DNA of 64,000 bases, taken from the NCBI RefSeq assembly GCF_007995015.1, contig NZ_VORB01000005.1, positions 62,001 through 126,000 of the forward strand, given 5' to 3'. The position numbers and the translations under genes are program-made. Below are positions 12,200 through 19,331 of this stretch, piece after piece. The notes below the pieces were generated by a model that saw only the letters and a program-made list of their open reading frames with translations, was not told the origin of the DNA and made no database searches. Position 1 is the first letter of the stretch; each line of letters begins with the position of its first letter. Source of the stretch: Luteibaculum oceani (GTDB lineage: Bacteria > Bacteroidota > Bacteroidia > Flavobacteriales_D > Luteibaculaceae).

Positions 12200-12272
12200 T
12201 AGCGGGGACAGGACTCGAACCTGTGGCCTTCGGGTTATGAGCCCGACGAGCTACCAACTGCTCCACCCCGCA
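12200..12272 (-). tRNA. Initiator tRNA-fMet (anticodon CAT)
   Basis: Read on the minus strand, the 73 bases fold as a full cloverleaf. The acceptor is GCGGGG/CCCCGC with an unpaired first position (T1 opposite T72). The D arm includes GGTAGCTC, the anticodon arm is TCGGG-CTCATAA-CCCGA, and the T arm is ACAGG-TTCGAGT-CCTGT. The three G-C pairs next to the anticodon loop and the mismatch at 1-72 are marks of the initiator tRNA. CCA is not encoded. Confidence 0.95.
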
Positions 12273-12281
12273 ATGTGGGCG

Positions 12282-12312
12282 CAAATATATGTATTATTGC
12301 ATCTCAAACAAA
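12282..12312 (-). promoter_or_regulatory. Promoter of the initiator tRNA
   Basis: On the minus strand, TTTG (12312-12309), 19 bases, then TATATTTG (12289-12282), a perfect match to the Bacteroidota TTTG-N19-TAnnTTTG form. The -7 box ends about 9 bases before the tRNA. Confidence 0.8.
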
Positions 12313-17008: not shown

Positions 17009-18262
17009 TTAGAAAAATACTTTTTTCAACTCGTCTAACTTGTCTAGCTTCTCCCAGGTAAACAGCTCTACATCTACCGTTTTCTTTTCTCCGGCTGGTG
17101 TAACAAATTCTTTGCTTACCACCTTTGACTCGCGGCCCATATGTCCATAAGCTGCGGTTTCACTGTAGATTGGGTTTCTTAATTTCAAATGCTTCTCTAT
17201 TAAACCTGGACGTAGATCAAACACTGATTTTAACTTCTCAGCAATCTCACCGTCAGTTAAATTCACCTTAGAAGTACCGTAGGTATCGATGAATAATGAA
17301 GTTGGTTCTACCACTCCAATAGCATAAGAAACTTGCACTAAAACTTGGTCTGCAATTCCAGCAGCAACAATATTCTTTGCCATGTGGCGCGCCGCATAAG
17401 CAGCAGATCTATCTACTTTACTTGGATCTTTTCCAGAGAAAGCTCCACCACCGTGTGCTCCTTTTCCACCGTAAGTATCTACAATAATTTTTCTACCAGT
17501 TAAACCAGTATCTCCGTGAGGACCACCAATTACAAACTTTCCAGTTGGATTGATGTGATACTTAATGTTATCAGTAAATAATTTTTGAATTTCTGGATCT
17601 AACTTGGCTACCAACCTAGGAATTACGATTTCGATAATATCCTTTTTGATTTTTGCCAACATCTTTTGCTCATCCGCATCAAACTCATCATGCTGCGTAG
17701 AAACAACAATAGCATCTATTCTTACCGGCTTATGATCGTCAGTATACTCAATAGTCACCTGAGATTTAGCATCGGGTCTTAAATAGGTAATTTCATTGTT
17801 CTCTCTTCTAAATGCAGCGAGTTCCTGAAGAATCTTGTGAGATAAATCCAAAGCCAGCGGCATGTAGTTTTCGGTTTCGTTAGAAGCGAATCCAAACATC
17901 ATTCCCTGATCTCCTGCTCCTTGCTCTTCTAGCTTACCGCGGTCTACCCCTCTATTGATATCGTCAGATTGCTCGTGAATTGCAGAGAAAACACCACAAG
18001 AATTAGCCTCGAACATATAATCGCTCTTGGTGTATCCTATTTTGGTAATTACATCACGTGCAATTTTCTGAACATCTAAATAAGTACTGGTTTTAACTTC
18101 TCCTGCCAATACTACCTGTCCAGTAGTTACTAGCGTTTCGCATGCTACCTTTGAGTATGGATCCCATGCTAAAAAGTTATCTAATAATGCGTCAGAGATC
18201 TGATCTGCAACTTTATCTGGATGCCCTTCTGAAACGGACTCCGAGGTAAATAAATAAGCCAT
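17009..18262 (-). CDS. metK: S-adenosylmethionine synthetase
   Basis: 417 residues, the usual size. The N-terminal [20 protein letters not shown] (6-25) carries the ATP-binding His and the metal-binding Asp. [10 protein letters not shown] (115-124) and [20 protein letters not shown] hold the phosphate-binding and catalytic Lys residues. The enzyme makes S-adenosylmethionine from methionine and ATP. The gene has its own promoter, a leader with a SAM-II-like aptamer, and a terminator. In the same window ahcY, bioB, bioA and miaB depend on the SAM cycle. Confidence 0.98.
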
Positions 18263-18301
18263 CTACTTTGAAAAATTAATCTGGAAGGGGAGCTGAGAGT
18301 A

Positions 18302-18357
18302 CTGCTTTTTAGCATTTTTTAATGTGGTTGCAATACGCGCAAATTTCTCCACCCAGA
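18302..18357 (-). ncRNA. SAM-II-like riboswitch in the metK leader
   Basis: The metK leader (minus strand, 18357 to 18302) matches the SAM-II aptamer core as I remember it. It has AUUU, then three bases, then CGUAUUGCAA in the P1 loop, and downstream AAAUGCUAAAAAG, which in SAM-II is AAAUG-nn-GCUAAAAAG. P1 would be GUGG/CCAC closing a loop of 21 bases. The GC of UUGCA can pair with the GC of GCUAAAAAG, giving the pseudoknot. At the next pseudoknot pairs the bases differ from the known RNA but stay complementary. The element starts within a few bases of the predicted transcript start and ends about 40 bases before the metK ATG. SAM binding would lower metK expression. Confidence 0.75.
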
Positions 18358-18367
18358 ATGTTCGGCG

Positions 18368-18398
18368 CAAAACTAATACACTTATGTGATTGTGCAAA
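18368..18398 (-). promoter_or_regulatory. metK promoter
   Basis: On the minus strand, TTTG (18398-18395), exactly 19 bases, then TAGTTTTG (18375-18368), a perfect TTTG-N19-TAnnTTTG. It places the transcript start near 18361, at the beginning of the riboswitch. Confidence 0.85.
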
Positions 18399-18422: not shown

Positions 18423-19331
18423 TTAATCTTTTGTTACGTCCTTAAATACTTCTTCTAAACTTCTTTTTTCCTTGTTAAGCCCTAAAACGGCTAGGTCTTT
18501 TTTAACGGCCAAATCGAACACAGATTTTCTTAAATCCATGCTGGCTTTGTATTCCAGCAACCACTGGTGATCTTTTAAGTGCTTGGCGGTTACTATACCC
18601 TCCAAGCTCAATAGATCTTTCTCTGCAATTGCACCTGAAAATTCAACAGATAATACCGCCGTATCTATTCCTTCCTCAACAATTTCATCCACCTGATTAT
18701 CTGCCACAATATTTCCCTTGTTAATAATAATAACGCGGTTACATATCGCCTCTACTTCCTGCATAATATGGGTAGAAAGCATTACCGTTTTAGATGCACC
18801 AACACGCTTAATCAGGTCTCTAATTTCTATTATTTGATTGGGATCTAATCCACTGGTAGGTTCATCCAAAATAAGTACCTCTGGATCGTGAATAAGCGCC
18901 TGCGCTAAACCAACCCTTTGTCGATACCCTTTTGAAAGCGCCCCAATTTTCTTTTTCTGCTCCCGAGTTAAACCCACCTGGGCTATCATGTCTTCTACTC
19001 GAGCCTTTTTATTCTTAATCCCAAAAATATCCGCAACAAAATGCAGGTATTCCTTAACGTACATATCCAAATAAAGCGGATTGTGCTCTGGTAGATAACC
19101 CACCTTTTCTCTAACCAAAAGTGATTGTTCCTCAACATCCAATCCAACAATAGAAGCCTTTCCCTCGGTAGGAGGAATAAAACCGGTTAAGATCTTCATC
19201 ATGGTACTCTTCCCTGCACCATTGGGTCCAAGAAATCCTACCACATCTCCCGTTTTAATTTCGAAAGACACTCCGTTTAACGCCTTCTGAATTCCGTATT
19301 CTTTGGTGATATTTTCAACAAGAATCGACAT
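18423..19331 (-). CDS. gldA: Gliding-associated ABC transporter ATPase GldA
   Basis: 302 residues. Walker A GPNGAGKS (35-42), signature LSKGY (132-136), Walker B LILDEPTSGLDP (153-164) and a switch His in STHIMQEVE are present, followed by a C-terminal domain of about 90 residues. The sequence GYLPEHNPLYLDMYVKEYL is typical of GldA, the ATPase that in Flavobacterium works with GldF and GldG in gliding. gldF and gldG are not next to it here. A generic ABC-2 type ATPase is the alternative. It is divergent from rsgA. Confidence 0.85.
   Translation of the reverse strand: MSILVENITKEYGIQKALNGVSFEIKTGDVVGFLGPNGAGKSTMMKILTGFIPPTEGKASIVGLDVEEQSLLVREKVGYLPEHNPLYLDMYVKEYLHFVADIFGIKNKKARVEDMIAQVGLTREQKKKIGALSKGYRQRVGLAQALIHDPEVLILDEPTSGLDPNQIIEIRDLIKRVGASKTVMLSTHIMQEVEAICNRVIIINKGNIVADNQVDEIVEEGIDTAVLSVEFSGAIAEKDLLSLEGIVTAKHLKDHQWLLEYKASMDLRKSVFDLAVKKDLAVLGLNKEKRSLEEVFKDVTKD

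Follow-up and report, generated by a model that had tools for sequence, protein, structure and literature searches.

A long-loop SAM-II element before metK in a Bacteroidota genome and a candidate competing helix formed with a downstream strand

The SAM synthetase gene metK of Luteibaculum oceani is preceded by a leader that resembles a SAM-II riboswitch, which raises the question of what class the element belongs to and how it could report SAM to the gene. The usual promoter boxes are missing in Bacteroidota, which are also generally held not to depend on Shine-Dalgarno pairing; for these reasons, the textbook SAM-II mechanism is not simply transferable to them. With a conserved strand competing against the aptamer, there is an explanation of SAM reporting by these riboswitches that can be tested directly. 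Within the window, meaning the whole 64,000-nucleotide stretch of DNA analysed, the leader and its gene comprise the following parts:

18395-18398, minus strand: -33 promoter element TTTG (sequence and pattern search; Bacteroidota primary sigma consensus, PMC7366714)
18368-18375, minus strand: -7 promoter element TAGTTTTG, of the TAnnTTTG type (sequence; box position in relatives)
18299-18358, minus strand: SAM-II long-loop aptamer (RF01726 and a covariance model of relatives only)
18349-18352, minus strand: P1 5' strand GUGG (Rfam, relatives and relatives-only model)
18341-18344, minus strand: L1 AUUU (AUUUG invariant in aligned relatives)
18328-18338, minus strand: P2 pseudoknot 5' strand GCGUAUUGCAA (little or no variation of UUGCAA among relatives)
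18324-18327, minus strand: P1 3' strand CCAC (Rfam, relatives and relatives-only model)
18304-18314, minus strand: P2 pseudoknot 3' strand UGCUAAAAAGC (GCUAAA invariant in alignment A1, described below)
17009-18262, minus strand: metK, SAM synthetase, 417 aa (open reading frame; 70-80% identity to its best relatives in other Bacteroidota)

We take metK to be the gene regulated by the leader.

Class of the metK leader element

In an Rfam scan of 221 nt, the minus-strand leader at 18299-18358 matched RF01726 (SAM-II long loops) with 42.3 bits (E 3.8e-7), falling 1.7 bits short of the curated 44-bit gathering cut-off, which is a detection threshold and not a structural feature. RF00521 (SAM_alpha) gave 19.5 bits and SAM-V (RF01826) 16.5 bits, below their cut-offs of 36 and 41 bits. 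A preliminary description of this DNA had named covariance scores below threshold as a refutation of the assignment, and in form that outcome was obtained, as all three models stayed under gathering. A covariance model built from alignment A1, which holds 43 aptamers of other genomes and excludes the window, was then searched against the window; it scored the leader at 55.7 bits (E 4e-11) and the runner-up at 10.5 bits, a large gap beside E-values that are rough for this model. Over the whole 2.92-Mb genome, the leader is the single RF01726 match, with the second best at 19.3 bits. Other RF00521 matches in the genome lie at noise level (17.6 bits or less).

Judged by its sequence, the metK leader belongs to the long-loop kind of SAM-II aptamer that occurs in Bacteroidota (RF01726), which agrees with the SAM-II-type aptamer originally proposed. 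The below-cut-off Rfam scores are overruled because the core is conserved before metK in relatives and because the relatives-only model recovers the leader. SAM-V has the same binding core (PMC6061858) and had been offered as an alternative class, yet it fits worse by its Rfam score, and a long-loop SAM-II element occupies the equivalent position in 40 further genomes of the order and about 60 of the class. It is extremely improbable that the element is SAM-V or a chance match, an identity refuted by the Rfam scores, the distribution over order and class, and the relatives-only model.

The leader contains AUUU, UUGCAA and GCUAAA in that order. On the minus strand, AUUU and CCAC are separated by GCG followed by CGUAUUGCAA, and AAAUGCUAAAAAG, downstream of CCAC, ends at 18305. 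Re-reading found the preliminary account of TTTG, 19 nt, TAGTTTTG and then the SAM-II core to be accurate. Its complementary pseudoknot bases are also present, since the outer P2 pairs read from the sequence are G18338-C18304 and C18337-G18305. By analogy with SAM-II and SAM-V structures, the L1 AUUU would form the third strand of the SAM-binding triplex (PMC6061858).

The element shares with RF01726 its P1, AUUU L1, UUGCAA and GCUAAA core, spacing and phylum, and differs by one extra L1 base and by the classic GCGUAUUGCAA form in place of GACUGAUUGCAA. With SAM_alpha/SAM-II (RF00521; PMC1273637), it has in common the pseudoknot architecture, the binding core and a start close after the promoter; unlike RF00521, it stands on metK, without a terminator, with no Shine-Dalgarno sequence in P2 and with the alternative helix P_alt downstream. 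SAM-V has a near-identical SAM-binding core, but its 3' helix usually carries the Shine-Dalgarno sequence (PMC6061858).

The class, phylum and gene setting of the element were already known, and it is an unremarkable representative of an established riboswitch family. SAM-II in Bacteroidota is no surprise, its presence there having been on record since 2005, when Corbino et al. mentioned a few Bacteroides-group cases (PMC1273637). The kind also has its own Rfam family, and Weinberg et al. 2010 list SAM-II long loops for Bacteroidetes and marine sources (PMC2864571).

Conservation and promoter in related leaders

Within the order, 41 of 349 genomes carry RF01726, and within the class 61 of 395 do. 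Among 100 loci examined, metK lies directly downstream in all 98 that could be read; in the other two, metK was unreadable and the match lay less than 150 bases from a contig end. A pattern search of 63 metK leaders from a collection of named genomes found the core in 37, including Chryseobacterium, Polaribacter, Maribacter, Daejeonella and Parapedobacter.

Conservation extends to structure, with P1, L1 and the binding core kept before metK. P1 is GUGG/CCAC in 81 and GAGG/CCUC in 14 of 97 leaders, a U-A to A-U change on both sides that bears out the P1 helix first proposed from the window; its pairs are kept in 95 leaders, and one pair is broken in two. Hardly any variation is seen in L1, in the two halves of the binding core or in the inner P2; in some families, L1 or L3 contains additional hairpins. 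For the outer P2, a one-base offset pairs best across relatives (0.53, against 0.33-0.48 at other offsets), with the window at zero offset. The metK leader of locus L136 (G100:C115) has a long insertion between CCAC and AAAUGCUAA; it is the weakest match at the order level (31.9 bits), yet retains GUGG/CCAC and the core.

The proposed promoter gains its support from position. The pattern by itself is unconvincing, with 4 matches where 2.16 would be expected in the window, but a TAnnTTTG-type box precedes P1 in 87 of 97 leaders at a median gap of 12 nt, where the rate further upstream gives an expectation of about 0.09 per 40 nt. The metK transcript is predicted to start at about 18361-18363, a position inferred from the span of TAnnTTTG in Flavobacterium psychrophilum, where it covers -12 to -5 (PMC9723704). 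A second promoter-like match of the form TTTG-N-TAnnTTTG lies at 12282-12312 on the minus strand, and a tRNA gene (12200-12272) follows it after 10 nt in the same orientation. The immediate upstream neighbour of metK, also on the minus strand, is an ABC transporter ATPase gene (18423-19331), and in several related loci a similar gene seems to end just before the metK promoter.

A competing helix and a model for switching

Side-by-side reading of the leaders gave rise to the idea of an alternative helix, P_alt, which was tested by comparing its duplex energy with the energies obtained when the downstream strand was dinucleotide-shuffled. Its two partners in the window, identified by the duplex test and by MFE and stepwise folding, are:

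18330-18357, minus strand: P_alt 5' partner (UCUGGG, GGAG, GUAUUGC)
18280-18305, minus strand: P_alt 3' partner (GCAGUAC, CUCC, UCCAGA)

The 5' partner overlaps P1 5', L1 and P2 5', and the 3' partner stops about 17 nt upstream of the metK AUG. The window duplex joins UCUGGG to UCCAGA, GGAG to CUCC and GUAUUGC to GCAGUAC at -22.2 kcal/mol (z -2.7 to -3.4). When the P2 5' strand was omitted, leaving P1 5' and L1, the window alone gave z -0.67 (p 0.26), which is not significant.

A first test across relatives used a shorter 5' segment and gave a median z of -1.26 (41 leaders). The segment was lengthened to P2 5' after this result was seen, and the extended version gave a mean z of -1.64 in 97 leaders, with negative values in 44 of 48 genera and 17 of 19 families (family-level Wilcoxon p 1.3e-5). 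Because of this later extension, the 37 separately drawn metK leaders of named genomes serve as a cleaner check: their mean z is -1.34, with 34 negative and p 2e-10, relatedness being uncorrected and some leaders sharing groups with the first set. As controls, the same 5' segment against the region upstream of the promoter gave a mean z of 0.03, and P1 3' with L3 against the downstream strand gave a weaker signal (mean z -0.46). Aptamers paired with their own downstream strand reached z -1.70, against -0.25 with strands from foreign families (p 3e-9; by family, p 5e-5). This loss of most of the signal on swapping strands between families is what co-variation of the two sequences would predict.

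Predicted folding points the same way. At least eight P_alt-type pairs occur in the MFE structures of 125 of 134 leaders, against 85 expected, and when the growing window leader is folded stepwise, the P1 hairpin persists until a length of about 64 nt, with P_alt replacing it from about 72 nt. Blocking the aptamer in the window leader raises the predicted energy from -33.4 to -15.3 kcal/mol; such secondary-structure energies leave out the pseudoknot, its triplex and the ligand, and pseudoknot and ligand would offset the rise. At the level of sequence comparison, these analyses show that the predicted P_alt pairing excludes the SAM-bound fold and is evolutionarily maintained. No account of the expression platform of Bacteroidota SAM-II was found in the open literature; P_alt, newly tested here and replicated, may account for the switching of the family in this phylum.

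A genuine aptamer could also work in the textbook way, with SAM-stabilised P2 hiding the ribosome-binding sequence and P_alt arising as a by-product of a purine-rich aptamer and a pyrimidine-rich leader. For metX SAM-II and SAM-V, direct occlusion is the generally accepted mechanism (PMC10907184; PMC6061858), and the downstream leader is indeed G-poor. In the window, however, the P2 3' strand ends about 40 nt before the AUG (18304 versus 18262) and has no Shine-Dalgarno-like sequence within it, and P_alt exceeds composition-preserving shuffles while own strands outdo foreign ones, all of which makes this explanation improbable.

The favoured explanation, which we hold to be quite probable, is that the leader acts as a SAM-II OFF switch for metK with P_alt as the competing state. 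Transcription would begin about 10 nt before P1, and the nascent RNA would form the P1 hairpin and then, as its homology implies, bind SAM as a SAM-II pseudoknot. When SAM is lacking, the RNA made next would capture P1 5', L1 and P2 5' in the longer P_alt, allowing metK expression; when SAM is bound, P_alt would be blocked, leaving the downstream strand free and metK repressed. Given the predicted order of folding, SAM binding to the nascent aptamer would need to precede the appearance of the competitor strand. In SAM riboswitches on methionine and SAM genes, bound SAM means repression, and by analogy it should do so for metK.

The confidence stated for the OFF switch covers this shared core, and two variants of the output depart from it in the last step only. 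Neither an intrinsic terminator nor Shine-Dalgarno occlusion is visible in the window, a search for an intrinsic terminator downstream of the aptamer having found none; the preferred view of the output is therefore premature transcription stop or blocked initiation, differing by lineage.

One variant, possible but on the doubtful side, holds that SAM binding frees a pyrimidine-rich Rho loading site and leads to Rho-dependent termination. The genome has a Rho gene, the lack of an intrinsic terminator would fit, and the freed strand is C-rich and G-poor; riboswitch control of Rho is known elsewhere (Hollands 2012, as cited in PMC12121620). However, metK leaders that have no riboswitch are equally C-rich and G-poor, and Rho-site composition was rejected as evidence because it is unspecific.

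In the other variant, which appears slightly less likely still, the downstream strand released on SAM binding pairs with the start-codon region and so prevents translation. This pairing is clear in some lineages, for example L067, where UAGACAAUUAUUCUU can pair with CAGAAUAACAUGUCUU, and L099, and the one leader tested from family f33 gave z -2.7; it is not general over 19 families (p 0.08) and is absent in the window (z +1.4). Nor does the aptamer-blocked fold clearly hide the start-codon region more (p 0.06). As a general rule, SAM-responsive hiding of the AUG is unsupported by the folding and pairing tests. In L067, L061, L099 and L112, which are Chryseobacterium-like or, in some cases, Bacteroidales, the downstream strand can pair with either the aptamer or the metK start-codon region.

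SAM-I and SAM-II in the same genomes

The window's genome also carries two SAM-I riboswitches (RF00162), which share the ligand of the metK element and have an unrelated fold. They score 90.8 and 90.5 bits and lie, as loci L196 and L197, at:

G000:C12:46237-46354: SAM-I riboswitch
G000:C2:166450-166557: SAM-I riboswitch

One precedes metH, and the other an OsmC-like gene followed by a Cys/Met-metabolism PLP enzyme, the genes being named by reading their translations. SAM-I scores above its cut-off in 54 of the 80 SAM-II-carrying Bacteroidia genomes that were tested. This co-existence runs against the 2007 statement of Barrick and Breaker, who found no species with both SAM-I and SAM-II (PMC2258182). 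Its frequency points to a division of labour that the 2007 survey did not see, with SAM-I in the window's genome acting on methionine synthesis and SAM-II on metK.

For the phylum as a whole, the evidence tips slightly towards a strand-capture platform that is shared by Bacteroidota SAM-II and undescribed for the class, operating without Shine-Dalgarno occlusion or a fixed terminator and co-existing with SAM-I in most such genomes.

At three loci (L134, L136 and L184, in G214:C92, G100:C115 and G479:C1), SAM-I and SAM-II lie no more than about 300 bases apart on opposite strands. Such pairs suggest that a single intergenic region controls metK and a second gene divergently.
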